From: a virus
Reading direction: 5' to 3' (one strand)
DNA: 41,789 bases
Virus record (IMG/VR): IMGVR_UViG_3300046003_004947
Span: 1 to 41,789 of that record
Shown piece by piece: positions 9,973-29,172 of the stretch; position 1 is the stretch's first letter; each line of letters starts with the position of its first letter. Position numbers and translations under genes: made by a program. The notes under the pieces were generated by a model that did not search any database, was not told the origin of the DNA, and saw nothing but the letters and a program-made list of their open reading frames with translations.

Positions 9973-10010
9973 CACCATTATAAACTGAGCATAGAACTTA
10001 AGGAGAAATA

Positions 10011-10313: not shown

Positions 10314-10314
10314 T

Positions 10315-12039: not shown

Positions 12040-12456
12040 TTATGGTTTTGTAGGCCAAGTAATTTCGTATGGAAATCCTGCTTGATCAGGAACTGCTCTA
12101 AGCGCCTGCCTATATGTGCTCCAAGCCGATTTTTGTGGCGCAGTTAAGCTACTTGATGATTCGGTCCAATCTGATTTTAGTAAAAGACTATCTCTTTCTT
12201 CTCTAGCTTCAAGTTCTAACTGAGTTTGTGTTTTTGGGTGCTTAGGGTAATTTGTTGGGGGGAAAGGAACTTCACCAAATTCTCCAGAATTTAATCGAGT
12301 CCACATTTCTCGTTGAAATGCTTCGGCGCCTACTCGGTGTGCATAGAATGGCACAGCAAAAGAAACTTCTGCAAACTTAATATGACAGTAGATATCATTG
12401 TCAAGATCTGTGCCTCTCTGTATAATAGAGACTGATTCAATTGTAAGCGTATTCAT
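12040..12456 (-). CDS. Tail assembly chaperone-like protein (Phage_tail_APC type)
   Basis: A 138-residue protein. Its second half has the hallmark pattern of phage tail/tail-fibre assembly proteins: ERDSLLLKSDWTESS, then AWSTYRQALRAVPDQ, then GFPYEITWPTKP, matching the R-D-x-L-L-x-x-S-D-W ... W-x-x-Y-R-Q-x-L-R ... F-P ... W-P signature of that family. The N-terminal half (about 1-70) is not recognised. Such proteins assist assembly of tail or fibre proteins and may not be part of the virion. It has a GGAGA ribosome site and a CATAAATA late promoter, and it shares the groEL terminator. Confidence 0.7.
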   Translation of the reverse strand: MNTLTIESVSIIQRGTDLDNDIYCHIKFAEVSFAVPFYAHRVGAEAFQREMWTRLNSGEFGEVPFPPTNYPKHPKTQTQLELEAREERDSLLLKSDWTESSSSLTAPQKSAWSTYRQALRAVPDQAGFPYEITWPTKP

Positions 12457-12517: not shown

Positions 12518-13150
12518 TTATTTAAATTTAAAGCCCAATCCTGGCCGTTTATCGTAGGCATATTCTGGATAGTACGGGCCATCCTTGTTGATATAGTGTA
12601 AAAATGCTTGAACTTGCCAACTTCCTTTATCAGCAACAAACGGATCTCTCCAATGCTCTACTTCGCAACCGCGATATACAATAATATCTCCTGGTTTTTG
12701 CGATAGCATTTTTCCAATATTATTTATCGACGAAACTTCTTCTATAATATTAAGGTTTGTGCCTACGTACATCCCCCAATTATAGTCCGAAGGAGCGTTA
12801 ACATAGTTATAACCTAGACATACAGTTGTACTGATTTCACAACTAACTCTATCAGTGTGTTTTTCTAGTGTCATCCCCGGACGGTACACTCTAAAATAAC
12901 TGTAAGTAGGACATAGTTCTAATCCGGTATGCATTTCCATATGCGGTTTCATAAAAATCATTAATGTTTCCATTAATAAATCTCCATAAACCGAATGAGC
13001 AAATGGAACTTGCCCTTCTGCTTCTTCTTTAAGAGGAGCGACTGATTCTTGCAACAATGCATATTGTGCTACTAGGTTGCAGACTTCGCGAGGAATTATA
13101 CTTTTGAGATCTAAATATGAATTTTTTTTAAATAATTCTGGATTATTCAT
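12518..13150 (-). CDS. 2OG-Fe(II) oxygenase-like protein (210 aa)
   Basis: Probable 2-oxoglutarate/iron-dependent hydroxylase. The ATG at 13150 overlaps the preceding stop in ATGA; the frame is open further upstream, but inside that gene. The iron ligands can be read as H98-T-D100 (in EKHTDR) and H166 (in CEVEHWRDP), with W178-x-V-Q-A-F after it as the last strand. Proximal to it, YSYFRVYRPGM is the usual strand before HxD. The 2OG-anchoring Arg or Lys at the expected place is less clear (R168 or K175). The gene is last of six in a minus-strand run from 17969 and the end of the halogenase/oxygenase operon. The substrate is unknown. Confidence 0.78.
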   Translation of the reverse strand: MNNPELFKKNSYLDLKSIIPREVCNLVAQYALLQESVAPLKEEAEGQVPFAHSVYGDLLMETLMIFMKPHMEMHTGLELCPTYSYFRVYRPGMTLEKHTDRVSCEISTTVCLGYNYVNAPSDYNWGMYVGTNLNIIEEVSSINNIGKMLSQKPGDIIVYRGCEVEHWRDPFVADKGSWQVQAFLHYINKDGPYYPEYAYDKRPGLGFKFK

Positions 13151-13944
13151 TTGAACGGATATCCTAAATTCCATGCTACTAAACTGTATCGAGTCCCTTT
13201 TGTAACCGGTGTTACTTGATGGTATACATGAGACGGAAAAACTATTATAGAGCCTCTTGGTCGTATTTCTGCACATTCGTGATATCTATCTTCTCTGTGC
13301 GGGCCTAGATCAAATTTTAAATTACCGCCTTCATAAGTAGCTGGATCACTAAGACTAATTGTAACGCTTAATTTTCTAATTTTTCCAGCTTTTAACGGAT
13401 TATCAATCAAGTGAGCTGCTTCGGGAACAAATGATCCATCACCGGCCAATAAAGGAGTCCCATCTTCATTTAATTTAAATTTATGTATAGTTGGATCAAA
13501 CAATTCATATTTGTCAGCTCCTGAATCAGCATGCCATCCGTAGAATTGATTTACTCCATATTTTGTAAACTGGAGGTCCTCTGTAAAATCCCAATCGAAG
13601 TTCCAGCCGGCTAATTTATTTGCTTCATGAACATATGGCCAGATCATGTTGTATAGCCGTGGGTCATTAAGCCAAGCAACATTAGAATCTCTCACGTGCA
13701 TATTGTTTAAACTGTTACCACTTTTTGTGATGTCTTCGACGGTGCTATCAGCAATTGTTATTGTATTGGTTTTAGTATCTAAAGATTGTTTATGCTTCCA
13801 ATCTCCGGTAACTCCATTGACTGCTGCATCCCCATAATCCTGGCGAGCTTTATGCATTGTTTCTAAACCAAGCTCTAAAATTGATTCGCAGACTTGATCA
13901 GATAATGCACTAACAAAGTACCAATAATTATAAGGCAGTATCAT
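13147..13944 (-). CDS. 2OG-Fe(II) oxygenase (PKHD/Tpa1-like, 265 aa)
   Basis: Prolyl-hydroxylase-like 2OG oxygenase with a full active site: H138-A-D140 in GWHADSG, distal H242 in SHVYHQV and the 2OG-binding R252 in KGTRYSLVAW. The core strands LSVTISLSDPATYEGGNLKF and GSIIVFPSHVYHQVTPV are typical of PKHD-type hydroxylases, which act on peptidyl proline or other residues in known members. It overlaps both neighbours by 4 nt (ATGA), so the three oxygenase genes are translated as a coupled set. An unusual segment between the HxD and the core (about 145-185) is probably an extra loop. Confidence 0.9.
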   Translation of the reverse strand: MILPYNYWYFVSALSDQVCESILELGLETMHKARQDYGDAAVNGVTGDWKHKQSLDTKTNTITIADSTVEDITKSGNSLNNMHVRDSNVAWLNDPRLYNMIWPYVHEANKLAGWNFDWDFTEDLQFTKYGVNQFYGWHADSGADKYELFDPTIHKFKLNEDGTPLLAGDGSFVPEAAHLIDNPLKAGKIRKLSVTISLSDPATYEGGNLKFDLGPHREDRYHECAEIRPRGSIIVFPSHVYHQVTPVTKGTRYSLVAWNLGYPFK

Positions 13945-14546
13945 CTAAAAATTGTTCCGTGGATATGACCCACAATAATATTTTTATGACCAGAAGTAAC
14001 TTCTTTTATTCTGTATGGCAAGAACGACGGAAATACTATCAATGAGCCAACCTCATTGATATTACTGGCTGAAGTATCAGTATTTAGAAATTCAATTTCT
14101 CCTCCAGTATATTCCGATGAATCATTTAAATTAATAATAAAACTAAGTTTTCTAGTTGCCGCCATTGGAGTAATGTCAATGTGCCAATTGTAAAAATCTC
14201 CGGTTGAATATTGATATACTTGTGGGAAATCTTGATCAATAATTCCTAAAAGTTTGAAATCATAAACTTCGTCATTGGCTTGTTTAGTTACTGCTCTAAT
14301 ATTTTCAAAAGGAAAGCCGGCAACTTCACCTCTAAGTTTCTGCCTTTTAGCGCGGTGTATATCACCATCGCCTATAACTCTTGCATCTAAATATAAATCT
14401 TCAATGCAACTTTCTAGTATTTTATTACAATCTTCTTTAGAAAATAGCATAGCTTTATTCATTGACATAATGTCTAACGATGCTAGTTTTGCTATGCCAA
14501 CTTCTAAAGATTGCGGCTCCAGTGTAAATTCGGTATTATTTTCCAT
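13941..14546 (-). CDS. 2OG-oxygenase fold protein with altered metal site (201 aa)
   Basis: It belongs to the same family as the next gene (13147-13944) by its core strands, LSFIINLNDSSEYTGGEIEF and GSLIVFPSFLPYRIKEV. H122-I-D124 (in NWHIDITP) keeps the first two ligands. Aligning the last strands with the neighbour puts Y178 where the distal iron His should be and K188 where the 2OG Arg should be. It may bind metal differently, work as a partner subunit, or be inactive. It starts from its own AGGAG site and has a possible late promoter variant TATAAGTA at 14563-14570. Its stop overlaps the next gene by 4 nt. Confidence 0.82.
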   Translation of the reverse strand: MENNTEFTLEPQSLEVGIAKLASLDIMSMNKAMLFSKEDCNKILESCIEDLYLDARVIGDGDIHRAKRQKLRGEVAGFPFENIRAVTKQANDEVYDFKLLGIIDQDFPQVYQYSTGDFYNWHIDITPMAATRKLSFIINLNDSSEYTGGEIEFLNTDTSASNINEVGSLIVFPSFLPYRIKEVTSGHKNIIVGHIHGTIFR

Positions 14547-14562
14547 AAGTGTCTCCTATACA

Positions 14563-14570
14563 TACTTATA
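14563..14570 (-). promoter_or_regulatory. Possible late promoter variant (TATAAGTA)
   Basis: TATAAGTA on the minus strand matches the late consensus at 7 of 8. It lies in the 41-bp gap between the 389-residue halogenase-like gene and the 201-residue oxygenase-like gene. The predicted start at about 14557 falls at the AGGAG site. Confidence 0.4.
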
Positions 14571-14587
14571 ATTTTAGATGGTGTCAA

Positions 14588-15757
14588 TTAAAAATATTGG
14601 TATTTCATATTATGATTGAGGTCTCTCCACACTCCGATAGGGAAAACCAAAGAAGTGTTGGTGTCCAATGCAGGGTCTGCTTGCTTCATAATAGTAATAT
14701 GTTTTTTAAATCTATCACTGTTGTCTAACACATCTTTGCATTTTTTTGTTGTTTTGTTCCAAAACGGAGAAGTAAATTTAGAACCACCATGATACATATA
14801 GCATATAAACAATTCATAATCTTCAGCTAATCCGTGTAAAAAAGAGTTTGCTTGATCTTCAGTAACTTGTTTAGTAATCACTACTTCAAAAAATAGTCTT
14901 AACACATTATCATAAAACCAACTGCTCAGTGCTTCTATAGGTTCGTAAAATAATGCCATATTTCCATTTTTTATTATTCTGCCATCAATAAACTTTTTTG
15001 CCTTATAATTGTTAAATGAAAATTCTCTTAAATTTAAATCTTCTTTGCGTGTTTTAAATATGTCAGCAATATCATTGATCGCTTCTTCTCGTGAAGTAAT
15101 TGTGTCATTGTAAAGATAACCCCATCCTTGACGAGTTTGTAGAGGAATTCCAAACATCCAACCGTTGGCATGGGCTTGATGATAGGTATAACTCCAGTTA
15201 CCTGCTTCTTTAATGGTGTGTACCAAACAGTGATTTACCGGTATGCTATCAACAGTAATATGATCGTTTGAGTTTTTAGGAAAGCCTCGGCAATCTATTA
15301 CATAATCAAAATCATGACTTTCATTGTTAGATAATGTTACAGTAACACTATCAACTCGATTGTGCATGGTTATTATTTCACCTTCAATTGTTAAAAAACG
15401 AGTATTCCATTTTTTCTCAAATTGTTTAAATGCAAATTCTTTTAAAGAAAAATTATTAAAATGCATAGCATAGTAAGGCGGTGGAATTTTTGTAAAGAAA
15501 TTATCTTCTCTCCAATTTACATATTTTACCCCGTGCTTCGCTGTCATATCCAACTCGTCGGGCATATCTAAAAAATTTAGTCCAGTTGCATAAAATAAAG
15601 TTTGTGGTATTTGTGTTGAAGTGCTTTCGCCTATCCCTAGCATTGGGATGTTAGGATCATAGATCGAAGTTACTTGCCAGTCTTTAGGAAAGAATGCTAG
15701 ACAATGAGCTAGCGATAAAATCCCAGCAGTTCCTGACCCTATTACAGCTATTTTCAT
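14588..15757 (-). CDS. Flavin-dependent halogenase-like protein, short form (389 aa)
   Basis: Tryptophan-halogenase family: FADH2-dependent enzymes that use O2 and halide to make hypohalous acid and a lysine to deliver it. The N-terminal FAD site is GSGTAG (8-13), followed by GIGESTSTQIP. K74 in TAKHGVKYVNW aligns with the catalytic lysine of the family, and W200-M-F-G-I-P205 is a variant of the WxWxIP signature. The usual GL-[SA]-x-x-[FL]-[IVL]-E-P-L-E-[SA]-T motif is reduced to LFYEPIEALSS, though E275 is kept. It is about 100 residues shorter than the other three copies. It may be a specialised or weak paralogue. Its start overlaps the upstream halogenase stop by 4 nt. Confidence 0.82.
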   Translation of the reverse strand: MKIAVIGSGTAGILSLAHCLAFFPKDWQVTSIYDPNIPMLGIGESTSTQIPQTLFYATGLNFLDMPDELDMTAKHGVKYVNWREDNFFTKIPPPYYAMHFNNFSLKEFAFKQFEKKWNTRFLTIEGEIITMHNRVDSVTVTLSNNESHDFDYVIDCRGFPKNSNDHITVDSIPVNHCLVHTIKEAGNWSYTYHQAHANGWMFGIPLQTRQGWGYLYNDTITSREEAINDIADIFKTRKEDLNLREFSFNNYKAKKFIDGRIIKNGNMALFYEPIEALSSWFYDNVLRLFFEVVITKQVTEDQANSFLHGLAEDYELFICYMYHGGSKFTSPFWNKTTKKCKDVLDNSDRFKKHITIMKQADPALDTNTSLVFPIGVWRDLNHNMKYQYF

Positions 15758-17217
15758 CTAAAGTATTCTTTCAATCTATCAATTTCACTTGCATGGTGCC
15801 GACTCCAAACGTGTCTATATTTTTCATTTTTTAAATAAGTGTCAATCACAATGTTTTCAGCTTGATCTTTGTTGTACTTGATTTTTCTAGGTGCTACGGG
15901 AACGCCCATTTGTATCAGCCAAGCAGACCAGTTAACACCATCAAACACAAATTGAAATTTTCCAGAGTGTGGAATGCTGACAGAAGGGTCAGCTAACTGT
16001 TCAATAAAATGTAACATTTTTTTAGATGGCGTAAAAGTGTTTTTTACATAAGACCAAAATTTTGTATCTCTATCATTGTCTGCATAGTGCATACTGACAA
16101 AATCTACACAGTCTTCAAACTGTATTTTCATTTGTAAATTAAAAAAGTCAACATCCTCTTTAGAATAATACTGTGTACGCATAGCATTACTTAAATGCGC
16201 CACGGCACTGGTAATTAAAGCAATTCCTGTACTTTCCAAAGGTTCAATGAATCCTGCACTTAGTCCGATAGAAACAATATTGCCACTCCACATATCTTCA
16301 TTATAGAACGGAGTCCAATCGATAACTTTACAGTCTTCTTTACTAATCCTATTGTCCCAATAGTTGACAAAATATTCTTTGGCTTCTTCGATGTCAGTGA
16401 TGTTTCTATTAAAAACTAGTCCGCTGCCAATTCTAGACGAAACCGGAATATTCCATATCCATCCGTGATCAACTGCTTCAGAAATCACATATGGCTGTAG
16501 TTCATTATTTCTGTCTTTATAGGGAACATGTCCTGCAATTGCAGTATTACAAAATAATCGACCTTCTAAATTAATACGCTTGTTGGTTTTTTTAAGCAGG
16601 CCGTTGAAACCAGTGCAGTCTATAAATAAATCTGCAGAAATAATTTCGTTATTTTTTAATTTCAAACTTGAAATATTTTCATTGTCATACACAATATCAA
16701 CTACTTCTGATTTGATTAATTTAACTTTATTTTTTAACTTCTGTTGTACAAATTGCGCCAACTTAGAACAGTCAATATGATAACCATAGTCGGGTAGATT
16801 ATTTGAATCTACAGAATTATGTATTACAGAAGATTCGTAATAGGCCAGGGCAAATTTTTTGAAATCAAATTCTTGCACATGAGACCATACATCATATAAC
16901 CGTGTGTCTTTGTCTACGGCACGATTTCCTTTATAAAAAGGATGCCATATATCTTTGCCTTTACCTTGCCAATTAGCAAATAAAATAGAAGACTTATAAG
17001 TAGCATCTACAGCAGGAAACCATTCAGAATGTTCAAAACCGCATTCTAACAAAAAATCTCCAATTTGTAACAATGTGCCTTCGCCTACGCCAACTGGTGT
17101 TCCAAATTCTTTATCTACAACTGTGATTAAAATATCTGGTTGATTGTTAGATAGATAAGCGGCAGCTAACCAACCGGAGGTGCCACCACCAACTATTGTT
17201 ATTGATTTTACTTTCAT
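15754..17217 (-). CDS. Flavin-dependent (tryptophan-type) halogenase (487 aa)
   Basis: All family signatures are intact: FAD-binding GGGTSGW (10-16), GVGEGTLLQI, catalytic-lysine motif DATYKSSILFANW (K75), W253-I-W255-N-I-P258, and GFIEPLESTGIAL with E328 at the position that orients the lysine-bound hypohalite in PrnA. Enzymes of this class halogenate tryptophan, other indoles, phenols or peptides; the substrate is not predictable here. No flavin reductase, which the family needs to supply FADH2, is encoded in the window, so it must come from the host or elsewhere on the phage. ATGA overlaps at both ends place it in a six-gene minus-strand run from 17969 to 12518. Confidence 0.93.
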   Translation of the reverse strand: MKVKSITIVGGGTSGWLAAAYLSNNQPDILITVVDKEFGTPVGVGEGTLLQIGDFLLECGFEHSEWFPAVDATYKSSILFANWQGKGKDIWHPFYKGNRAVDKDTRLYDVWSHVQEFDFKKFALAYYESSVIHNSVDSNNLPDYGYHIDCSKLAQFVQQKLKNKVKLIKSEVVDIVYDNENISSLKLKNNEIISADLFIDCTGFNGLLKKTNKRINLEGRLFCNTAIAGHVPYKDRNNELQPYVISEAVDHGWIWNIPVSSRIGSGLVFNRNITDIEEAKEYFVNYWDNRISKEDCKVIDWTPFYNEDMWSGNIVSIGLSAGFIEPLESTGIALITSAVAHLSNAMRTQYYSKEDVDFFNLQMKIQFEDCVDFVSMHYADNDRDTKFWSYVKNTFTPSKKMLHFIEQLADPSVSIPHSGKFQFVFDGVNWSAWLIQMGVPVAPRKIKYNKDQAENIVIDTYLKNEKYRHVWSRHHASEIDRLKEYFR

Positions 17218-17969
17218 TTAATATCCTTTGGGCAAATTATAGAAGTTTTTGAATCTTCTTTATTCTTTCGTATTCTCCTACTTTCCATGTATCCGTTAAC
17301 AAAAAATGGAAAACTATTATTATTCATTACTCGCATAAGATCGTTAGGGCCTACTAGATGTAGCTTGATTTCTACATCATGTTCAGTCATTGGTATTAGG
17401 TGCGCCATGGCTTTTCCTGCTGGAAAATCATACAGCTGACCTTTTTTTAATAACATATTGATATTACTTGTGTGTTGGTATTTGTATTCAACAATTCCTG
17501 GCAAGGTTTCTTGTGTTAGCAAGTCACTTGGATAATTCCAAGGAGTCCCTGTGTATAAAAAGTTAACTCCGGACTTTTCCCTAATCCTCCAAGGACTGAT
17601 TAATTTGATATGAGTATATTGAGAAAAACCTGTTCCTAGTTGATCCAAAGAATGAAATCCAATTTGACTTGTGTTATCCGCAAATTGAAATGTATAATTT
17701 TGACCATGTGTTTGAAGTTTTAAATCACTCCATAGCGGAATGACAAATCCGTACGAGTATAAATTTTTAAAGCCCACACAACCTTTCATAGTTCCGTGGT
17801 CAACAGGAAGTCCTCCAGCTGTTTCGGTTGCATATTTGTTCGGCAAACGTTTCCACCAATCTGGATAAAATTTATTAGCTTTATCGATAGGAAATAAATC
17901 ATAGGCGTTAGGGCTTGCGGTAAAGCAGTCAATAACTATTTTTTTTCTACGAGTAAAAAAACTAAACAT
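17214..17969 (-). CDS. Protein of unrecognised family, first gene of the halogenase/oxygenase run (251 aa)
   Basis: I do not recognise the function. The start at 17969 (MFSFFTRRKKIVIDCF) has a GGAG site; the longer frame would run through the promoter region and into the divergent gene. The sequence is mostly beta-like with no signal peptide or membrane segment. It has DLFPIDKANKFYPDWWKRLP near 24-43, GCVGFKNLYSYGFVIPLWSD (63-82), and a late segment PGIVEYKYQHTSNINMLL followed by YDFPAGKAMAHLIPM. The block C-x-x-F-K-N ... F-x-x-P-x-x-D-L also appears in the protein at 24141-24863, so the island holds two distant members. Its stop overlaps the 487-residue halogenase start by 4 nt, which suggests a direct partner role. 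Confidence 0.75.
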   Translation of the reverse strand: MFSFFTRRKKIVIDCFTASPNAYDLFPIDKANKFYPDWWKRLPNKYATETAGGLPVDHGTMKGCVGFKNLYSYGFVIPLWSDLKLQTHGQNYTFQFADNTSQIGFHSLDQLGTGFSQYTHIKLISPWRIREKSGVNFLYTGTPWNYPSDLLTQETLPGIVEYKYQHTSNINMLLKKGQLYDFPAGKAMAHLIPMTEHDVEIKLHLVGPNDLMRVMNNNSFPFFVNGYMESRRIRKNKEDSKTSIICPKDIK

Positions 17970-17989
17970 AAATTCTCCGTGTTCACAGC

Positions 17990-17997
17990 TACTTATC
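17990..17997 (-). promoter_or_regulatory. Possible late promoter variant (GATAAGTA) of the six-gene run
   Basis: GATAAGTA on the minus strand resembles TATAAATA at 6 of 8 and has the same G variant as the site at 14563-14570. The predicted start near 17984 gives a 15-nt leader containing GGAG. Confidence 0.35.
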
Positions 17998-18025
17998 AGG
18001 TTTTGCAAAAGTCTAAAATAAAACT

Positions 18026-18033
18026 GGTAAATA
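18026..18033 (+). promoter_or_regulatory. Late promoter (GGTAAATA), leaderless configuration
   Basis: GGTAAATA ends five bases before the ATG at 18039, so +1 is predicted on the A of ATG. Spacer: TCTCC. Confidence 0.55.
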
Positions 18034-18038
18034 TCTCC

Positions 18039-18629
18039 ATGCTGATTCAAGATGATTTCTTACCAACAAACGATTTTAAAAAACTTCAAAGTTTTGTTTT
18101 ATCTAATGAATTTCCTTGGTTTTATTCTGACCAAGTATCTCTTCCTCCTGGTGATCATCAGTTTAACGATGCTTACTCTAAAGAGACTGACGGATTTTAT
18201 CATATGTTATATGCTCAAGACGAAGAATGTTATAGTATGTTTGCAAAAGATTTTGAAGGATTCTTTAACAAATTATTTGAAGAATTTGGTTATAATAATA
18301 AATCAATACTACGAGCAAGGCTCGGTCTTAAAATGCCTAAAGCCAATCACACTAAAGAAAATTACAATTTGCCTCACATAGATTATAATTTTCCGCATGA
18401 CACTGTGATATTTTATTTAAATGACAGTGATGGAAATACACGAATGTTTAATGAGCACGAACTGCATTCTCCTATGACCAATCGATATACTGTAAAAAAC
18501 GAAATAGAACCAAAAGAAAATAGAATTCTATTATTCGATGGATTGCAATATCATACTGCAAGTAATCCCATCAATACTAATAGACGAGTTATACTCAATA
18601 TAAATTTATACCCTAGATCATCGGAGTAG
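18039..18629 (+). CDS. 2OG-Fe(II) oxygenase-like protein (196 aa)
   Basis: Start taken at 18039 (MLIQDDFLPTNDFKKLQSFV) because the late promoter ends five bases before it; an upstream in-frame TTG would precede the promoter. Iron ligands are H113-I-D115 (in LPHIDYNFPHD) and H172 (in LQYHTASNP), with R182 or R183 as the 2OG anchor in NTNRRVILNINLY. The strand TVIFYLNDSDGNTRMF is the standard core. Related small oxygenases are common in T4-like marine phages. It leads a plus-strand run of three oxygenase-like genes (18039-19842), transcribed away from the six-gene halogenase run. Confidence 0.87.
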   Translation: MLIQDDFLPTNDFKKLQSFVLSNEFPWFYSDQVSLPPGDHQFNDAYSKETDGFYHMLYAQDEECYSMFAKDFEGFFNKLFEEFGYNNKSILRARLGLKMPKANHTKENYNLPHIDYNFPHDTVIFYLNDSDGNTRMFNEHELHSPMTNRYTVKNEIEPKENRILLFDGLQYHTASNPINTNRRVILNINLYPRSSE

Positions 18630-18632
18630 TTA

Positions 18633-19220
18633 ATGGCTAAATTAGAATTTTGGTTTCCTACTGTAATATATCTTGAAGAAAATTTATTTTCTGAAGAAAT
18701 TAATAAAAAATGGGCTGAACAAATACATAAAATTGCAGAGCGTAACCCTTCCGGTGGAGATGAGTGGGAAGGGAAAACCTATACTACGCACAACGCATAT
18801 CGGTTAATTGAGGATTTAAATTTTAAATCTTTAATTGAAGCGGTTACTGAGCATGTACACAAATATGCAAAAGAACATAACTCGATAGCAGAATACAAAT
18901 GCTCCGATGCTTGGGTCAATATAGCAAAATCTGAAAATTTTCAAGAATATCACACGCACGATGGTAGTGTGTTTAGCGCAGTATATTATGTTGCTTCTCC
19001 AGAAGGGTCTGGGAATATAGTATTTGAAGATCCTCGTATGCCAGATATGTTACCTGTAAAAAACATTCCGGAAAGAAATTCATTAAGTTTTGTTAAAGTA
19101 GGATATAAAACTCAAGGTGGAATGCTTGTAATTTTTAGATCATATCTACGGCATTGTGTACAGACTGGGTCTAATAAAGAACCAAGAATTTCAATAGCTA
19201 TGAATTTTGGATATGCATAA
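18633..19220 (+). CDS. Putative 2OG-Fe(II) oxygenase, HxH type (195 aa)
   Basis: It resembles the phage-rich putative 2OG-Fe(II) oxygenase family Pfam 2OG-FeII_Oxy_5. It begins LEFWFPTVIYLEEN, typical for that family. The signature is H107-T-H109 in EYHTHDGSVFSAVYYVASPEGSG, then a distal H174 (SYLRHCVQTG) and R185 in EPRISIAMNF. It is three bases after the previous stop with CGGAG as ribosome site, and overlaps the next gene by 8 bp. The same subfamily occurs again at 21345-21962. No substrate is known for this family to my knowledge. Confidence 0.85.
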   Translation: MAKLEFWFPTVIYLEENLFSEEINKKWAEQIHKIAERNPSGGDEWEGKTYTTHNAYRLIEDLNFKSLIEAVTEHVHKYAKEHNSIAEYKCSDAWVNIAKSENFQEYHTHDGSVFSAVYYVASPEGSGNIVFEDPRMPDMLPVKNIPERNSLSFVKVGYKTQGGMLVIFRSYLRHCVQTGSNKEPRISIAMNFGYA

Positions 19221-19842
19221 TTTATTCGATACAAATCCTTTAGAAAAAAATATAAAAATTAAAACAGTAGAAGAAACAACTGTGTATATAGTTGACGACT
19301 TTTACAAATATCCAGACGAAGTTTTTCAATTCATTTTATCAAACCCTAAAAAAAGATGGAAAGATTGGGACACTCTTAGTTATAATGGAATTCATTTTTT
19401 AGATGAACGACATAATTTCTATGATGAAAGATTATTAGATGTTTGTTCTACACTAGAAAACCTGTGCGGAGAAAAAGTTGTGCAGCCGGGCAGAGTAGTA
19501 ACTAATTGTATGACATTTTATAATAAAGAGTTTAATAATTATAAAGACAATTTTTGGGGTCCACATAATGATTTAGGATATACCGCATTGATTTATCTTA
19601 ATAAAGAAACTTGCGAGGGAACAAATTTTTACAAACAAGTTGCAGAGGATCCGTGGGATACTCCGGAGCATTTTGAACCTTGGCGATCAAAAGATAAGTA
19701 CCAGTTGATTGATACTATAGAATCAAAATTTAATCGAATGGTATTATTTAACGGCCTAAAACTAACTCACGGGATGAGCGTAAACTCTGAAAAATTCTTT
19801 AATAATTTAAGAATTAATCAAGTAGTTTTTTTAAAGCCGTAG
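19213..19842 (+). CDS. 2OG-oxygenase-like protein (DUF6445-like, 209 aa)
   Basis: I chose the ATG at 19213, inside the last codons of the previous gene; a TTG six bases earlier is possible. The core GPHNDLGYTALIYLNKETCEGTNFY holds H118-N-D120 and the G-T-x-F-Y strand, and VLFNGLKLTHGMSVN supplies H186, with R200 in FNNLRINQVVF as possible 2OG anchor. This pattern fits the DUF6445-type branch of the 2OG-oxygenase superfamily. The two upstream genes are also oxygenase-like, so three different subfamilies are encoded in a row. Its 3' end overlaps the oppositely oriented halogenase gene by 25 bp. Confidence 0.8.
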   Translation: MHNLFDTNPLEKNIKIKTVEETTVYIVDDFYKYPDEVFQFILSNPKKRWKDWDTLSYNGIHFLDERHNFYDERLLDVCSTLENLCGEKVVQPGRVVTNCMTFYNKEFNNYKDNFWGPHNDLGYTALIYLNKETCEGTNFYKQVAEDPWDTPEHFEPWRSKDKYQLIDTIESKFNRMVLFNGLKLTHGMSVNSEKFFNNLRINQVVFLKP

Positions 19843-21305
19843 GAACTTCTTATATAATCTATAAATTGTTTATGGGTTATTTTCGGAGATTGAGAATCGT
19901 ACAATTTAAGTTCGTCTATAACATTGACGGCATTTTGTTTAATCCAAGAGTGCATCATATTAAATTCATTTTTAATAGCAGCCCGATCAAATAATTTTAA
20001 ACCATTTAACACATGTATGTGATGTGTTTGATTAAACAATGCATACTTAGATACACCTCTGAAATCGTCTTCGATTGGAAGATTAGTTTTCCAGCGTTCT
20101 AATTTTTCACTTAAAGAATCCGGGATTGGTAATTGCTGTATATCTTTCCAAAATTTAGTATTGGTTTTTTTAGTTAGATAATGCATTATAATAAAATCAC
20201 GAATATTATCCATAATACCGTTAACATCTTTATTATATCTATCAATTGTTTTTTGATTGTAGTTAGGCAATCTATGCATTAGTAAAAACATTTGTTGTAT
20301 AGATGTTCCAATAGATGTTGCTTCTAACGGTTCTACAAAGTTTGCGCCCAAGCCTACAGCACAGCAATTATTAATCCATACACGATCCAATGCACCCGGA
20401 TCAAAATCTATTTTTCTAACAATATCAACATCTTTATTAAAAAATTTGTCAACTTCATCTTTTGCAGCATTGACAGTTATATAATCGCTATCAAAAATAT
20501 AACCATTACCGGTTCTATCATAGACAGGAATACTAAACATCCATCCATAGTCCATAGCCTGTGCTACAGTCCATAACGGTAAATTTTTATCTGCGTCTGT
20601 GGGAAACATTATAGCTGATTTCATTTTTAAATAGTTGCTATAAGATTGCCACTTTCCTCCTAGTTTAGAAATCAATACTCTTCTAAAACCAGTAGAGTCA
20701 ATAAAAAAATCTGCGTTATAGTTTGATTTTTCACCTTGCAAAGATGAAATATTACCACTATCATCGACAGTGATATCTAAGATTTCATCGTCTACAATTT
20801 TAATTCCTTTTTTAATTGCCGTTCGTGTTAAGAAATCATTTAATTTAAATGTATTAAAGTGGAATTGATTAAAAGGTGAGTCGGCATTAGCGTCAGTTGC
20901 ATATTTTGATGAAATCTTAGATTGCCAAACTGGTGTTGGATTCATTTCACAGCATGGCATATTACTTGCCATGACAAATCCGTAGATGTACTGATACTGA
21001 CCATTAGTTTTATCGTAATCCAGGCTGGTACTATGCAAGTAGTCTTCCTCAGCCCACCCCTTAAACATTATTCCAGACTTAAATGTAGCGTCACATTCTA
21101 TAATAATTTCTTGCCATTTGACTCCGATATATTTCATAAATTCGGACCAATGTTCTGTTGAGCCTTCGCCTACTCCAACGATGCCTATTTTTTCAGATTT
21201 TATTATTTCAATTTCAATTTCTGGGAATCGGGTATTTAAAATTAGTGCTGCAACATAACCAGCTGTGCCGCCGCCTACCACGCAAACTTTTTTTAAATTG
21301 TTCAT
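19818..21305 (-). CDS. Flavin-dependent (tryptophan-type) halogenase (495 aa)
   Basis: Start at 21305 (MNNLKKVCVVGGGTAGY); an in-frame TTG at 21365 would lie inside the divergent gene. Signatures: GGGTAG at 11-16, GVGEGSTEHW, catalytic-lysine motif DATFKSGIMFKGW (K76), W255-M-F257-S-I-P260 (second Trp of WxWxIP replaced by Phe), and NFVEPLEATSIG with E328. A Cys-rich stretch MPCCEMNP lies near 116-123. This gene and the oxygenase at 21345 share a 39-bp gap. I see no strong ribosome site, and the best promoter candidate on this strand is a weak TATAAAAC overlapping the plus-strand late promoter. Confidence 0.93.
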   Translation of the reverse strand: MNNLKKVCVVGGGTAGYVAALILNTRFPEIEIEIIKSEKIGIVGVGEGSTEHWSEFMKYIGVKWQEIIIECDATFKSGIMFKGWAEEDYLHSTSLDYDKTNGQYQYIYGFVMASNMPCCEMNPTPVWQSKISSKYATDANADSPFNQFHFNTFKLNDFLTRTAIKKGIKIVDDEILDITVDDSGNISSLQGEKSNYNADFFIDSTGFRRVLISKLGGKWQSYSNYLKMKSAIMFPTDADKNLPLWTVAQAMDYGWMFSIPVYDRTGNGYIFDSDYITVNAAKDEVDKFFNKDVDIVRKIDFDPGALDRVWINNCCAVGLGANFVEPLEATSIGTSIQQMFLLMHRLPNYNQKTIDRYNKDVNGIMDNIRDFIIMHYLTKKTNTKFWKDIQQLPIPDSLSEKLERWKTNLPIEDDFRGVSKYALFNQTHHIHVLNGLKLFDRAAIKNEFNMMHSWIKQNAVNVIDELKLYDSQSPKITHKQFIDYIRSSYGFKKTT

Positions 21306-21331
21306 AATATACGATAGCTTAATAATTGTTT

Positions 21332-21339
21332 TATAAATA
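21332..21339 (+). promoter_or_regulatory. Perfect late promoter (TATAAATA), leaderless configuration
   Basis: Exact consensus TATAAATA ending five bases (CTTCC) before the ATG at 21345, so the predicted +1 is the A of ATG. Its opposite strand contains TATAAAAC, which may serve the divergent halogenase. Confidence 0.75.
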
Positions 21340-21344
21340 CTTCC

Positions 21345-21962
21345 ATGAATAACATTGTAGAACACCCTATATTCATTTCTTCTTGTTACAATACTTATCT
21401 AAAGCATATTGACAATAAGTCGTTAACTGACTTTATTACAAAATTAGAAAAGACTGATCCAAGCAACGCTCGAAGCAATAAAGGCGGATGGCAGTCAATA
21501 CCTGTAGATGAAACACGAATTGACAATGCAATAACATTAGAATTGTTCAACACTGCGATAATCCCTATGGCCCAAAAAATTATTAATTCTTGGGCTATGC
21601 CAAAAGAACTGAGTAATTATAGTTATTGGTATAATGTGAATCGGCGATACAATTACAACTCTGCACATATGCACCCTGATTCATATTTGAGCGGAGTTTA
21701 CTATGTAAAAGTTCCTGCAGACAGCGGAAGGATTGTATTCGATAGACCTCAAACTGAAGCAGATCGTATGACTTTTCAAACTCAATGGTTTTTACATAAT
21801 TCTATAACTGTTAACAATCCCAGAATTAATACCGAACACTGGTTTGTACCAGAAGAAGGAATGTTACTGATGTTTCCAGGGCATCTTACCCATGGTGTTG
21901 AGCAAAATCTCAGTACCGATGAAGATGATAGAAGAATATCTTTAAGTTTTAACTTATATTAA
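21345..21962 (+). CDS. Putative 2OG-Fe(II) oxygenase, HxH type (205 aa)
   Basis: Second member of the HxH subfamily in this island. H108-M-H110 sits in SAHMHPDSYLSGVYYVKVP, the hallmark of the family; the distal ligand is H180 or H183 in FPGHLTHGVEQN and R197 anchors 2OG in DDRRISLSFNLY. The central YWYNVNRRYNYN strand matches N-x-N/Y-x-x-x-x-x-N sequences in family members. It is probably expressed from the perfect TATAAATA with no leader, head to head with the 495-residue halogenase. Its 3' end overlaps the next halogenase gene by 14 bp tail to tail. Confidence 0.88.
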   Translation: MNNIVEHPIFISSCYNTYLKHIDNKSLTDFITKLEKTDPSNARSNKGGWQSIPVDETRIDNAITLELFNTAIIPMAQKIINSWAMPKELSNYSYWYNVNRRYNYNSAHMHPDSYLSGVYYVKVPADSGRIVFDRPQTEADRMTFQTQWFLHNSITVNNPRINTEHWFVPEEGMLLMFPGHLTHGVEQNLSTDEDDRRISLSFNLY

Positions 21963-23493
21963 TTTTTCTATCTTCTCTAAACTTTGCAATCATCTCTGCC
22001 CACGAGTACTGATCTGTTAATTCTTCATGCCATTGTTCATGATGTCCAACATAATCATTTTTTACCGCATCTTCTAAATTGTCTATTCCGGGAATAGGCA
22101 TTTGAAGTTCTTTTGTAGCCACATCTTTATTGATAAGATGTAGTCCTTCCATTACATAACTATAAAGTGGCCAGCCTGCACTGCCATAGTAACTTGGAAA
22201 ATCGTGATGTGTTGGCATTCGATATTTTGCCATTTCGATTAAATTAGTTACAAATTCTGTTTTAGTTACACCGGTGTTTATATAACGCCAAAATTCAGTG
22301 TCAGTTCTCCCCCCGCAATAATGCATCGCAATAAAATCTTTTAAATCATCAAACATTTTTCTAGTTCTTTGATTATAGATGTTGATCGACCCTTGATTTA
22401 TTGTTTCTTCGGTTGTGTCTCTAAGATAATCAAAAACAAAGTTTTTAATTTGAACCACTGTAGAATGTATACTGGTTGCTTCTAATGGTTCTAAGAACGC
22501 TGAGGCTAATCCAATGGTTACACAATTGTTAATCCATGCCAATTCTTGTCTGCCTGTTGAAAACTTAATAACCTTTGCAGGATTAATTTTTCTGCCTAAT
22601 CGTGCTTCTATTTCTGCCTGTGCTTCGTCGGGTGTAATAAAGTTATCGTCAAATACATAACCGCATCCCTTTCGATCTAATAAAGGTATTTGCCACATCC
22701 ATCCAGAATTTTGAGCCCAGGCAGTTGTATAAGGTTCTGGTATTTCGCCTTCTTGATAATCTAATAAGAATGGTATTGCACTGTTAACTGGCAAATTATC
22801 ATGATAACTTACCCAACCATTAGTAGGCATTTTTTTCATTAATAGTCGAGACATACCTGAACAGTCAATAAAAAAATCACCTTGAACTTTTGTATTATCT
22901 TCGAGGACAATATTTTTTATAAATCCCCTATCATCTAATTCTGCATCAATAACTTTTGCATCAATATGAGTGGTATTTGAATTACGCATTGTTATTTTTT
23001 GAAAATATTTTCCAACTAGGTGTGCATCAACATGCATTGCGTGTGTCATATTAGAAAAGTCGTTGGTTGTTTTATTGAAATTGCTTTTACCCTTTGCAAT
23101 CCAGTTTCCAATTCTTGAAACTTTAATAATATCTTTACGAGAAAGATTTTTAATACCGTGTGCAAATTGTATATCCGGAGTATGTTGTTTGGTTATACTT
23201 CCGTCAATTGGTCCAATATAATAATCATCTATATCCGGAGTCCACCCTTTGAACTTGATTCCGTATTTTAATGATGCTCCGGTTTCTCTTATAAATTCAT
23301 TATGATCACAGCCAAAATCCCACAAGTGGTTACCTAACAAGTCTGTTAGCAATCCGGTGGTGCTTTCACCGACACCGATGATACCTATGTTTGATGATTC
23401 TACTAGGGTAATTTTATGGTTAGGATGTCTATTAGATGCCAGGAGTGCTGTCATCCATCCTGCTGTACCACCACCGACTATAACTATATGCAT
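21949..23493 (-). CDS. Flavin-dependent (tryptophan-type) halogenase (514 aa)
   Basis: The longest of the four copies. Signatures are complete: GGGTAGWM (7-14), GVGESTTGLL, catalytic-lysine motif GASLKYGIKFKGW (K76), the canonical W265-M-W267-Q-I-P270, and SAFLEPLEATSIH with E338. HVDAHLVGKYF and FIDCSGMSR are usual FAD-domain strands. The ATG at 23493 follows an AAGGG site and lies downstream of a minus-strand TATAAATA at 23526-23533 with a 27-nt leader. Being intact and well conserved, it is a good candidate for an active enzyme, given an outside source of reduced flavin. Substrate unknown. Confidence 0.94.
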   Translation of the reverse strand: MHIVIVGGGTAGWMTALLASNRHPNHKITLVESSNIGIIGVGESTTGLLTDLLGNHLWDFGCDHNEFIRETGASLKYGIKFKGWTPDIDDYYIGPIDGSITKQHTPDIQFAHGIKNLSRKDIIKVSRIGNWIAKGKSNFNKTTNDFSNMTHAMHVDAHLVGKYFQKITMRNSNTTHIDAKVIDAELDDRGFIKNIVLEDNTKVQGDFFIDCSGMSRLLMKKMPTNGWVSYHDNLPVNSAIPFLLDYQEGEIPEPYTTAWAQNSGWMWQIPLLDRKGCGYVFDDNFITPDEAQAEIEARLGRKINPAKVIKFSTGRQELAWINNCVTIGLASAFLEPLEATSIHSTVVQIKNFVFDYLRDTTEETINQGSINIYNQRTRKMFDDLKDFIAMHYCGGRTDTEFWRYINTGVTKTEFVTNLIEMAKYRMPTHHDFPSYYGSAGWPLYSYVMEGLHLINKDVATKELQMPIPGIDNLEDAVKNDYVGHHEQWHEELTDQYSWAEMIAKFREDRKINIS

Positions 23494-23519
23494 TTTATTT
23501 TACCCTTATTAAGTGCGTA

Positions 23520-23533
23520 GATAAATATTTATA
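23520..23533. promoter_or_regulatory. Palindromic bidirectional late promoter
   Basis: The 12-bp perfect palindrome ATAAATATTTAT (23521-23532) creates GATAAATA on the plus strand (23520-23527) and TATAAATA on the minus strand (23533-23526), overlapping by two bases. It would drive the oxygenase at 23558 and the halogenase at 23493 from one site, each with a leader of about 25 nt. Confidence 0.7.
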
Positions 23534-23557
23534 ACAACGATTGAGATCATTAAAAAA

Positions 23558-24139
23558 ATGTCTTTTATAGAAACTGAATTTTTGAAAGACAAAAAAATAT
23601 GCGATAAACTAATTGCATATTTTATTCAGTGCGATAAAAAACATGCTGCTATGCATATAGTCAACGGAGAGACTGTGTTAGCGGATCCCAAAATCAAGAC
23701 TTCTACAGATATAACCATATCACGAGATACTGTTTTAGAATGTCCTGCATTATCTGATTACCTTGATGAACTTGATATTATAGTTTCGGAATATGTTAAA
23801 AAGTGGCCTAGTTGTGATTGGTATTCTCCTTGGTCAATTAATACTCCTTTTACTATACAGTATTATAAACCCGGAGAAGGATATCATTCGTGGCATACTG
23901 AACGATGCGGTGCAAGTAAAAGATCAGTGTCTAGGCATTTGGTGTTTATGACCTATCTTAATACAGTAACTGACAACGGAGGAACAGAATTCCTCAACCA
24001 ACAATTAATAATAAATGCCGAAAAGGGTAAAACAGTTATATGGCCTGCAGATTGGACGCATACTCATAGAGGTGTAGTTTCAGCAACACAGGACAAGTAC
24101 ATAATTACCGGTTGGTTTAATTACGATAGAGAATCATAA
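23558..24139 (+). CDS. 2OG-Fe(II) oxygenase-like protein, HxE type (193 aa)
   Basis: Prolyl-4-hydroxylase-like fold. The active-site strand reads YHSWHTERCG, so the facial triad would be H113-T-E115 rather than HxD, with H168 or H170 in DWTHTHRG. K180 (DKYIITGWF) stands where Arg usually binds 2OG, as in prolyl 4-hydroxylases that use Lys. The middle FMTYLNTVTDNGGTEFLNQQ and KGKTVIWPADWTH are strongly conserved in similar proteins of T4-like marine phages, so HxE appears to be a family trait rather than decay. The next gene starts one base after its stop. Confidence 0.85.
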   Translation: MSFIETEFLKDKKICDKLIAYFIQCDKKHAAMHIVNGETVLADPKIKTSTDITISRDTVLECPALSDYLDELDIIVSEYVKKWPSCDWYSPWSINTPFTIQYYKPGEGYHSWHTERCGASKRSVSRHLVFMTYLNTVTDNGGTEFLNQQLIINAEKGKTVIWPADWTHTHRGVVSATQDKYIITGWFNYDRES

Positions 24140-24140
24140 T

Positions 24141-24863
24141 ATGAAAATAGTCAAACATTCATTCCATACTGGACACCAATTTGGCGTGAATCATGCCGAA
24201 CACATTAAACATTTTTTACCTAAAGATTACACGCCGTTATCCGCGCTGTCTAAAGATATTGTTTCGATTAGAAAAGGAACAATATTTACAAAGTGCCCTG
24301 CTGTCACTGACTTTTTTAAAAATACCTGGATCTTTAGAAGTCCTATTGATTTAAATATTGATATTGAAGTCAACGACGATTACAGCAAGGTATATTGTGA
24401 TAATGTAGATCAAGAATTTTTTAATTTAATGATTGATATTAGATTTTTGAATGACAGCGAAAAAGGTATTAGCCCATATCCGTTGATAGGGATAGATTTT
24501 TTAAATACATTCACATGTGACGAGAGCTTGACTATACAGGCACTACCGGCATTTTTACATTACAGCAATTTTACTAGTAAAGCAACTATAATTCCCGGAG
24601 AATATGATATTAGTAAATGGGTAAGGCCAGTTGAAATAGTATTCGAAACTAAGAACAAACATGAACGGATAGAAATTAAAAAAGGCGATGCACTATGCTA
24701 CTATAAATTTCTAACTCCAGATATTGTTAAGTTGGCTCAGGACGAAACTCCGTGGGAAGAAATAATAGCTTGCAACAATATTCGCAAAAATGATCTATTT
24801 CGCCCTTTGAAGGAAAGATATGAGGGTTTTAAAAAGTGGCGTGAAGATAATCAAAAAGATTAG
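24141..24863 (+). CDS. Protein of unrecognised family, second member (240 aa)
   Basis: No function recognised. KCPAVTDFFKNTWIFRSPID (51-70) followed by LNIDI matches the block in the protein at 17214-17969. Later it has LPAFLHYSN, ATIIPGEYDISKWVRPVEIVFE and IEIKKGDALCYYKFL, a run of beta strands that could form a cupin or jelly-roll. It starts one base after the oxygenase at 23558-24139 and is probably cotranscribed with it. It converges on the fibre block, overlapping the end of the first glycine-rich gene by 4 bp. Both copies of this family lie next to a halogenase or oxygenase, so a role in the same pathway is likely (inference). Confidence 0.75.
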   Translation: MKIVKHSFHTGHQFGVNHAEHIKHFLPKDYTPLSALSKDIVSIRKGTIFTKCPAVTDFFKNTWIFRSPIDLNIDIEVNDDYSKVYCDNVDQEFFNLMIDIRFLNDSEKGISPYPLIGIDFLNTFTCDESLTIQALPAFLHYSNFTSKATIIPGEYDISKWVRPVEIVFETKNKHERIEIKKGDALCYYKFLTPDIVKLAQDETPWEEIIACNNIRKNDLFRPLKERYEGFKKWREDNQKD

Positions 24864-25963
24864 TATCTAACTATCACTACTCCGCTTCCGCCAGCATTTC
24901 CAAATTGAGCCCCACCTGCTCCGCCACCTGTATTGGCACCACCTGCTCCACCGTCTGCTCGGTTAAAATACGCAGCACCGGGCTGTCCATCATTTAAACT
25001 CTGTCCACCGCCACGACCAAATGTAGCATCGCCGGGACGATAGGGGCCGCCATGATAAACAGCGCCACCACCACCACCACCAAGTCCACCTTGTCCACCA
25101 ATTTGCCCATCACCAAGATGACAGCCACCGCCACCGCCTCCACTAAAATACAGCGTTGGTCCTAGTATGTCGGTCGCTGCTCCAGATCCGCCTGCTTGAC
25201 TATCTCTAGCGCCTTTGTAGTCATCGCAACTGTCTACTCCTCGCCCGCCGGCTCCACCACCACCACCACTACCGTGACCATTTGAGCCGCTAGTATTAAA
25301 TCGTAATCCCGAGCCACCCGGAAATCCCTGTCCTGTGGTACCGTCGCCTTCTCTCATACGAGTTCTATTGCCGGGGGTGTCAGTGCTTCCACCACCGCCA
25401 CCACTGCCTCCGTCACCGGCTGGTATGGTATTCCAGCCTCCAGAATGACCACCGCCACTTGCAGTGGTTGCTCCAAATACTGAGTTTCCACCAATAGAAC
25501 CAGACATTGAACCGCCAGGAGTAGATCCTCTAACGCCACCGCCGCCTACAGTTACAGTTATACCAGTACCTGAGGTTACAGGATATGCCCTAGTATAGAT
25601 CATTCCACCACCACCACCACCACCTGCCCAGTCATAGCCACTTCCACCGCCACCGCCTATTATCAATACCTGTACAGTGCCGGTAAATGTTGGTGTAAAT
25701 GTATGACTACCTACAGTGGTGAATAGATGTGTTATACCGCCATTGCCATATGCAATGGTTTGTCCGCCTGTGCCTACAGATGACTTACTAAAGCCAGTTA
25801 CTGGTCGCCAAGTTGTGCCGTCGTAGTATTCTAATGAATTAGCAGATGCAGCACTATATCGCATCATTCCAGCAACAGGTGTTCCTGGTCGCTGGGCCAC
25901 AGTTCCTGAAGGTAATGTTACAAACCCAGTGTCGCTAATCGTTGTTGCTTGTAAAGTTGCCAT
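24860..25963 (-). CDS. Glycine-rich tail adhesin-like protein, copy 1 (367 aa)
   Basis: Probable receptor-binding or fibre-tip protein. The N-terminal 75 residues (MATLQATTISDTGFVTLPSG, then SLEYYDGTTWRPVTG) look like a fibre attachment part. From about 100 on there are repeated poly-Gly runs (GGGGGSG, GGGGGGG and others) separated by variable loops. It ends GGSGVVIVRY. Poly-Gly repeats of this kind form polyglycine II helix sandwiches in T-even gp38-type adhesins, where the loops contact the receptor; that parallel is an inference. No transmembrane or signal segment is present. AAGGA precedes the ATG, and the stop is 9 bp from the next copy. It shares start, linker and C-terminal motif with copies 2 and 3. 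Confidence 0.75.
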   Translation of the reverse strand: MATLQATTISDTGFVTLPSGTVAQRPGTPVAGMMRYSAASANSLEYYDGTTWRPVTGFSKSSVGTGGQTIAYGNGGITHLFTTVGSHTFTPTFTGTVQVLIIGGGGGSGYDWAGGGGGGGMIYTRAYPVTSGTGITVTVGGGGVRGSTPGGSMSGSIGGNSVFGATTASGGGHSGGWNTIPAGDGGSGGGGGSTDTPGNRTRMREGDGTTGQGFPGGSGLRFNTSGSNGHGSGGGGGAGGRGVDSCDDYKGARDSQAGGSGAATDILGPTLYFSGGGGGGCHLGDGQIGGQGGLGGGGGGAVYHGGPYRPGDATFGRGGGQSLNDGQPGAAYFNRADGGAGGANTGGGAGGAQFGNAGGSGVVIVRY

Positions 25964-28197: not shown

Positions 28198-29172
28198 TTA
28201 CCTTTTAAGTTCGTTAATTTCTTGTTTAAGAGATTTAATACATTCAACAAGATATGCACCTAATTTGGTATACTGAATACCGTAGGGCTTACCGGTCTCG
28301 TCCAGTGTTACTAAATCTGGAACAATTTTATAAACATCTTCTGCAATTAAACCAATTTCGTGTTTTCTTGATCCGTCTTTACGATCATAAGTAACACCTA
28401 GTAGTTGTAATACGGAATCTAATGCTCCAGTAATCGGTTCAACATTTTCTTTAAATGCAATACTGGAAGTTTCAACAATTGTAGCGGCTGTTACTTGTCC
28501 GCTTACGCCTACACCGCCTGTAACTACCAATGTACCAGTAGCAGTAGTAGTTGATGCAACAGCGTCTGTCATTAGCACACTTGCTGTGGCTTTAGTAGCA
28601 TTTGTTGTACCTCTAATTGTAATAGTACCGCCGCTGCCTGTGCCGCCATAGTGATTGGCAGCATTTAATGCTGTGGCTGTCAACTCTCCTGTACTAGGCA
28701 CAAATGATAAGTTTGCCCTGTTGTTCATTGCAGTAACTTGGCCGGTTGTATATATACTACCACTGTTGGTTGCAAATATTGGATAGTGTACAGTTGCAGT
28801 AGATCCTGCGTCTGTTACCGCTACACCAGCAGAAGATAAACTCAGCCAACTTAATGTGCCGCTTCCGTTGGTTGATAAAACATAACCACCGGTTCCATCT
28901 GCTGCGGGCAATGTCCAAGTTACATTTGAAGCTACTGTAGCTGCGGATCTAAAGGCTACATAGTTACTGCTGTCAGAGTCTGCTAGACGCAGTTCTGATT
29001 GTGCATTTAGCTGAGTGGCTCCAACTATCTGTGTGATACCAGTTCCGTTAGGATCTATAATTAGATTCTGGTTTGTTACTGCGGTCGTTAAAGTATTACC
29101 AGTCCCGCCGGCAACAATAGTACCTAGGCCTCCACCTGAACCGACAACACCAATGCTTACTTTACGTCCCAT
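28198..29172 (-). CDS. Tail fibre protein with C-terminal S74 self-cleaving chaperone domain (324 aa)
   Basis: The N-terminal 230 residues are Thr/Ser/Gly-rich fibre sequence (for example GTGNTLTTAVTNQNLIIDPNG; SNVTWTLPAADGTGGYVLSTNG). From about 236 the intramolecular chaperone (Peptidase S74) begins: S236-S-I-A-F-K241-E-N-V, with Ser and Lys five apart as in the catalytic dyad that cleaves just before the Ser. Next come LLGVTYDRKDG, HEIGLIAEDVYKIVPDLV and a C-terminal helix ending EINELKR. The domain trimerises the fibre and then releases itself. The gene is 7 bp upstream of the Gly-rich copies in transcription order. Confidence 0.87.
   Translation of the reverse strand: MGRKVSIGVVGSGGGLGTIVAGGTGNTLTTAVTNQNLIIDPNGTGITQIVGATQLNAQSELRLADSDSSNYVAFRSAATVASNVTWTLPAADGTGGYVLSTNGSGTLSWLSLSSAGVAVTDAGSTATVHYPIFATNSGSIYTTGQVTAMNNRANLSFVPSTGELTATALNAANHYGGTGSGGTITIRGTTNATKATASVLMTDAVASTTTATGTLVVTGGVGVSGQVTAATIVETSSIAFKENVEPITGALDSVLQLLGVTYDRKDGSRKHEIGLIAEDVYKIVPDLVTLDETGKPYGIQYTKLGAYLVECIKSLKQEINELKR

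Follow-up and report, generated by a model that had tools for sequence, protein, structure and literature searches.

In IMG/VR virus record IMGVR_UViG_3300046003_004947, a viral fragment of 41,789 nucleotides referred to here as the window, an island of 14 tightly packed genes (A to N, positions 12518-24863, both strands used) lies between a tail fibre assembly gene and a row of glycine-rich tail fibre genes. Four of its products belong to the flavin halogenases, eight resemble Fe(II)/2-oxoglutarate (2OG) oxygenases and two belong to a family that we refer to as X. On comparative sequence evidence we lean towards the view that this island is a post-translational tailoring cassette, whose enzymes would act on the adhesin at the tail tip. 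Halogenase, X and 2OG genes recur beside glycine-rich fibre genes in distantly related phages, and in one cultured phage species the fibre tip and the enzyme set have been replaced together.

Recurrence of the enzyme set beside fibre tip genes

The layout found in cultured cyanophages runs from the fibre through glycine-rich tips, one or more halogenases, usually X, and oxygenases to the neck genes. In S-RIM44 the order begins with a long structural protein, three proteins with the PF21722 domain, a small protein, two halogenases and X, after which come two PF13759 proteins flanking a DUF6445-like protein, a PF13640 protein, a JmjC_2 protein, an A-like protein, two small genes and the neck gene gp13. 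JmjC_2 is a family which we take to include bacterial ribosomal oxygenases. The layouts of P-TIM40, Syn10, syn9 and S-CREM1 are similar to that of S-RIM44, and P-TIM40 encodes PF21722 proteins, two halogenases, X and PF13759, PF13640 and JmjC_2 proteins; Sf-CH3 and Sf-FR1 have the order halogenase-X-2OG; and S-WAM1 and S-SZBM1, which gave no X match, combine the fibre with a small protein, halogenase and 2OG genes. S-RIM44, P-TIM40 and S-CREM1 share with the window the presence at one site of tips, halogenase, X, PF13759, PF13640 and DUF6445-like or JmjC_2 proteins, but their cassettes have one or two halogenases, include JmjC_2 and occupy a single strand, whereas the island uses both strands and has no JmjC_2.

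The Syn10 protein CPUG_00131, which X adjoins, is identical over 530 residues to VirX1 (PDB 6QGM), and therefore the structurally solved viral halogenase sits in a fibre-tip locus of this type. VirX1, reportedly an iodinating enzyme that acts on diverse substrates, belongs to the same Pfam family as the island halogenases and is likewise accompanied by PF21722 fibres, X and further 2OG-matching genes, but it falls in another clade than D, E, J and L, and Syn10 has two halogenases compared with four in the window. No earlier description of a linkage between halogenases and fibre tips was found in a literature search that covered a small part of the field.

The strength of the linkage was estimated by rotating halogenase positions in 17 non-identical cultured phages that had been picked by halogenase similarity, a small and non-random sample. 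A halogenase lay within 2 kilobases (kb) of a PF21722 gene in 10 of the 17 records, against 0.93 expected (P ~6e-10), and, with relatives collapsed into groups by judgement, in 6 of 13 groups (P ~1e-5). Of the genes used for comparison in these records, psbA/psbD was so placed in 1/16 and talC in 0/14. A natural swap within S-RIM44 points in the same direction. From a point shortly ahead of the neck genes and through the sequence beyond it, the isolates Np_42_0711 and W2_10_0709 share 95-97% identity. Immediately upstream of this stretch they part: where Np_42_0711 has the last portion of the long fibre gene together with tips, small protein, the two halogenases, X and oxygenases, W2_10_0709 encodes another protein, of 294 residues, another small protein and just one 2OG protein, itself unlike those of Np_42_0711 (exchanged regions L100:16672-18552 and L101:13842-24591). 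The fibre tip and the enzyme set have thus been exchanged as one unit.

Closer relatives of the island are found among IMG/VR contigs. The same genes, at 42-81% identity, are present in L026, L027 (of which L028 and L029 are near copies), L030 and L089, in all of which the set adjoins the tail fibre assembly gene; in L026 and L089 it reaches as far as the glycine-rich fibre genes. A fifth halogenase is present in L027 and its copies, and L089 lacks D and M and has E in a second copy. One inversion aside, that of the block E-M (15754-24139) relative to L026, L027 and L089, the genes retain their order in relatives with as little as about 50% protein identity. A site-specific inversion switch was considered for this block and rejected: strong flanking inverted repeats were not found and contigs matching the window at 100% share its order, and the inversion is therefore treated as evolutionary. 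In contigs further removed from the window (L009-L016, L094-L099), the same site beside tail-fibre genes is occupied by several 2OG proteins and by between one and four halogenases, and in L009-L016 X is present in tandem in three or more copies. The original prediction, made from the window alone, had supposed that the set belongs together; it is indeed kept together in relatives, within a neighbourhood common to distant phages, and independent assortment was not borne out.

These observations bear on an alternative in which there is no joint pathway, and independent auxiliary genes have gathered at a recombination hotspot between the fibre and neck genes. The site is highly variable, 2OG genes are widely scattered in such genomes, the four halogenases fall into deep separate clades, and crossovers in conserved flanks could exchange tips and enzymes together. 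We nevertheless consider a mere hotspot unlikely, as it is specifically halogenase, X and 2OG genes that recur at the site in distant phages, while psbA/psbD and talC are rarely or never near PF21722; the order of the island is maintained as described above; and X is found near an adhesin in haloarchaeal viruses as well.

Protein families of the island and its borders

The family matches of the island proteins (Table 1) are far beyond chance. In pairwise comparisons the nonsynonymous rate (dN) is well under the synonymous rate (dS), itself near saturation, for each comparable island gene; these are therefore maintained genes, under purifying constraint. Ambiguous starts lengthen some open reading frames (ORFs), and the preferred starts are A 13150, F 17969, G 18039, I 19213 and J 21305; the ORF of A reaches 13276, with orthologues beginning at ~13150, and that of J opens with GTG at 21365, its first ATG being at 21305.

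The four flavin halogenases named in the original prediction (D, E, J and L) are confirmed by PF04820 scores of 118-331 bits, against a curated cut-off of 21 bits, and by the presence in all four of aligned GxGxxG, catalytic Lys and E-P-[LI]-E motifs. The aligned Lys and Glu positions are those that we take to be Lys79 and Glu346 of PrnA. E (WIWNIP) and L (WMWQIP) match the WxWxIP motif exactly, and J and D read WMF(S/G)IP, with Phe in place of the second Trp. D is without about 43 PF04820 model positions between 107 and 150 and has a long branch; Lys and Glu are kept. In the tree D, E, J and L, D among them as a deep separate clade, sit in separate deep clades, and VirX1 in yet another; the separate deep clades of D, E, J and L led us to reject a recent origin of these genes by tandem duplication. 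The phage scaffolds MT835646 and MT837902, both from human faeces, also encode halogenase homologues, at positions 9737-10912 in the former (MT835646.1, L082).

With PrnA, RebH and PyrH the island halogenases share the fold family, the catalytic Lys and Glu and GxGxxG, but, besides the truncation of D, the island differs in that neither biosynthetic partners nor a flavin reductase were found. This difference matters for a second alternative, that these genes form a biosynthetic cluster whose product is a small molecule, halogenated and hydroxylated, derived from Trp or another amino acid, made in the infected cell and serving, for example, to suppress competitors or predators. L does strongly match the PrnA-, PyrH- and RebH-type halogenases of free Trp. 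However, Pfam and PHROG searches of the 14 island genes gave no carrier protein, ligase, glycosyltransferase, methyltransferase or exporter, and likewise no scaffold-building or activating enzymes and no transport or resistance genes; the halogenase of S-SSM7 (kin of S-SSM6a), by contrast, lies amid carbamoyltransferase and sugar genes. A small-molecule product would also leave the fibre linkage unexplained, and we regard this alternative as quite unlikely.

The description of eight proteins as 2OG-oxygenase-like was apt, with profile support for seven of them: B, C, G, H, K and M pass Pfam gathering scores (PF13640 or PF13759), I passes that of DUF6445, and A is placed by its motif, beside a PHROG match. 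The full HxD/E...H pattern with a basic residue is present in B, G, I and M. In A an HTD...H pattern is invariant in five sequences and the basic residue is uncertain; A matches nothing in Pfam or NCBIfam and nothing convincingly in the PDB, and profile comparison gives it no tie to the other oxygenases. C keeps H-x-D, but in all orthologues checked Tyr/Trp replaces the distal His, and Lys replaces Arg. C is nonetheless conserved (dN 0.31-0.44 vs dS >1) and therefore may be non-catalytic or an altered enzyme, possibly a pseudoenzyme or a protein with an altered metal site. In H and K the first metal motif is of the H-x-H type, as it is in two structural-genomics proteins matching K, and their chemistry cannot be predicted from such a motif. 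The PHROG labels 'ferrochelatase' (A), 'DNA endonuclease V' (G) and 'minor coat protein' (I) were set aside as probable misannotations because these proteins carry 2OG-type motifs or profiles, a point that is unproven for A. Labels of this kind on 2OG-like proteins may misdirect surveys of auxiliary genes.

F and N, which had been described as two members of an unrecognised family, are united by an iterative profile as one family, X, and match PHROGs without known function. The AlphaFold2 model of F, built with 26 relatives, has a mean predicted local distance difference test score (pLDDT) of 84, and its listed PDB fold matches are all dUTPase or dCTP deaminase, the best with a borderline E-value of 1.4e-3 and a query template modelling score of ~0.3-0.4; a profile search with F gives a weak dUTPase match (E 0.047), and one X homologue from a cultured phage is annotated 'triphosphate nucleotidohydrolase'. 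Some X members have an [IV]-[IV]-D-[TS]-D segment that resembles the catalytic motif of dUTPases; at this segment F reads I-V-E-Y-K. X is predicted to be dUTPase-like in fold, and we do not class it as a dUTPase. No X relatives were found in bacterial genomes in a single-sequence scan, the family alignment being too diverse for scanning, but X homologues are present in 49 haloarchaeal virus records. In HCTV-11, X lies ~1 kb from a gene annotated as an adhesin, presumably the locus of the kind that governs host range in haloarchaeal viruses (PMC8651126).

Table 1 Island genes, bordering fibre genes and promoter-like sites in the window
Feature	Coordinates	Strand	Assignment and support
Tail fibre assembly chaperone (Phage_tail_APC)	12040..12456	-	Left border; PF16778 E 1.4e-18
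A	12518..13150	-	2OG-like; PHROG 2954 'ferrochelatase' E 4.6e-41; without Pfam/NCBIfam match
B	13147..13944	-	2OG-FeII_Oxy_3 oxygenase (putative); PF13640 E 1.4e-12; HAD138...H242...R252, ligands conserved
C	13941..14546	-	2OG-FeII_Oxy_3 protein; PF13640 E 4e-11; without canonical distal His, Arg
D	14588..15757	-	Short flavin halogenase, 389 residues; PF04820 118.3 bits
E	15754..17217	-	Flavin halogenase, 487 residues; PF04820 293.7 bits
F	17214..17969	-	Family X; PHROG 7084; dUTPase-like fold (predicted)
G	18039..18629	+	2OG oxygenase (putative); PF13640 E 4.3e-6; PHROG 274 E 1.2e-36; HID133...H192...R
H	18633..19220	+	2OG-FeII_Oxy_5; PF13759 E 4.6e-21; TIGR02466 E 5.5e-31, above cut-off
I	19213..19842	+	DUF6445 protein; PF20043 E 2.3e-7, above cut-off; HND120...H188...R202
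J	19818..21305	-	Flavin halogenase; PF04820 310.8 bits
Promoter-like site	21332..21339	+	TATAAATA; T4-late-promoter-like, upstream of K; pattern only
K	21345..21962	+	2OG-FeII_Oxy_5; PF13759 E 7.8e-21; TIGR02466 above cut-off
L	21949..23493	-	Flavin halogenase, 514 residues; PF04820 331.5 bits
Promoter-like site	23526..23533	-	TATAAATA; T4-late-promoter-like, upstream of L; pattern only
M	23558..24139	+	2OG-FeII_Oxy_3 oxygenase (putative); PF13640 E 8e-10; HTE113...H168/170...K180
N	24141..24863	+	Family X; PHROG 17480, E 5.4e-21; joined by iterative profile
Glycine-rich fibre protein	24860-25963	-	Right border; PF21722
Glycine-rich fibre protein	25973-27082	-	Right border; PF21722
Glycine-rich fibre protein	27084-28190	-	Right border; PF21722
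S74-peptidase-chaperone fibre protein	28198..29172	-	PF13884 E 8.4e-12; fibre PHROGs
Tail fibre protein, 2663 residues	29525..37516	-	PHROG tail fibre families, E 6.4e-169

The phage had been described as T4-like, which holds in the broad sense of a T4 relative; its tail sheath (1177 residues, 738-4271) is closest to those of the jumbo phages Phosso, Atu_ph07, SCTP-2 and the Paride group, and the phage looks like a jumbo-lineage relative of T4. The jumbo phages nearest by sheath infect Sinorhizobium, Agrobacterium, Salicola and Pseudomonas, and none of these four genera is among the hosts of phages with halogenase matches. Beside the island the phage encodes a GroES and GroEL pair (10011-11976), with a TATAAATA site at 9965 upstream of GroES. 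The few sites of this pattern upstream of GroES, K and L only suggest late expression, and sigma-70 promoters and terminators showed no excess over shuffled sequences. Elsewhere in the window, an HNH-type ORF (4347-4682, +) and a deoxynucleotide monophosphate kinase gene (4629-5282, -) overlap at the 3' end of the kinase gene.

Proposed mechanism of fibre tip modification

We propose that during virion production the halogenases and the Fe(II)/2OG oxygenases would modify side chains of the adjacent glycine-rich fibre proteins, most likely before or during assembly of the tip, and that this would alter the virion surface that binds the host; the fibre that carries these tip proteins may be the target instead. 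The modified residues could be, for example, Trp, Tyr, His, Asn or Pro in loops. The three PF21722 proteins of the window are the candidate substrates. In an alignment of seven sequences (the three window tips and four relatives) a number of aromatic and polar positions are invariant, and several lie inside glycine runs; W47, W176, Y271, H281, H303 and N340 are examples of these invariant residues and are candidate sites only. X may be a trimeric accessory that, for instance, presents the fibre tip to the enzymes, a role guessed from its predicted dUTPase-like fold, and reduced flavin would be supplied by the host or by an unrecognised gene.

Precedents exist for halogenase-type chemistry on polypeptides. 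Some flavin halogenases are reported to act on peptide-bound Trp (PMC10858898, PMC12518702), and QhpG, a flavoprotein structurally similar to halogenases, hydroxylates peptidyl Trp in a protein (PMC7876137). The ribosomally synthesised and post-translationally modified peptide (RiPP) brominases, ChlH and QhpG are halogenase-type flavoproteins acting on peptidyl Trp and serve as precedent only, the QhpG matches being sub-threshold. The original prediction had proposed a tailoring pathway with tail adhesins among its candidate targets; the comparative evidence favours this and narrows the target to the fibre tip, and the modification itself is what we infer.

Several observations weigh against tailoring of the fibre tip. 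We know of no modified fibre peptide. The prediction of the fibre structure was too poor for a fold search (mean pLDDT 49.8), and a window PF21722 fibre compared with the PDB gave no adhesin match and an antibody linker match only. A flavin reductase, which the original prediction had proposed to look for elsewhere on the genome, was not found, PF01613 having no match in the window or in 15 other records; since a host enzyme could supply reduced flavin adenine dinucleotide (FADH2), its absence does not exclude halogenase function. Some halogenases are distant from PF21722-type fibres, as in S-PM2-type phages (near transfer RNA genes and hli), S-B64 and P-SSM2, and the cassettes of G004 and G005 lie beside fibres with no PF21722 match, so that PF21722 is not the sole possible partner. 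2OG genes are numerous genome-wide (14 PF13759 matches in HTVC008M), and therefore their presence in the island is partly background. Recombination in conserved flanks could give the S-RIM44 swap without functional coupling, and the swap therefore supports, but does not prove, a role of the enzymes at the tip. Finally, the virion proteome of S-SZBM1 reports the neighbouring structural proteins 51-54 and neither the PF21722 proteins nor the enzymes (PMC9146016); modified or trypsin-poor proteins could be missed, and proteins that are absent would likewise go unreported.

That the enzymes go unreported among the S-SZBM1 virion proteins would also suit a third alternative, in which their targets are proteins or surface glycans of the host, or receptors used by other phages, and not the phage's own fibre; in bacteria, translation proteins are substrates of 2OG and JmjC-type enzymes. 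We judge a host target to be very unlikely, as it leaves unexplained both the within-species co-exchange with tip genes and the adjacency to fibre genes.

Implications for viral halogenases

Earlier explanations of the halogenases and the numerous 2OG oxygenases of marine phages cast them as genes for antibiotics, DNA repair or energy (PMC2984593, PMC9964418, PMC3037559). Tailoring of the fibre tip would instead place them with the receptor-binding machinery, in which T-even phages and hafunaviruses also have glycine-rich tip adhesins at the end of the fibre block; the likeness between gp38-type adhesins and the PF21722 proteins of the window lies in their being glycine-rich and fibre-linked, with no structural match. 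The link to a fibre-tip cassette gives viral halogenases, VirX1 included, a concrete candidate substrate. Beyond the window, we tentatively suggest as a possibility that tailed bacterial viruses possess a dedicated and exchangeable oxidative and halogenating system for post-translational modification that diversifies the chemistry of their receptor-binding tips past what the genetic code offers, with a dUTPase-fold accessory common to archaeal viruses, and that this may be the natural job of viral halogenases. If true, this would add a chemical layer to the arms race between phages and their hosts, and would bring halogenated protein surfaces into virology.

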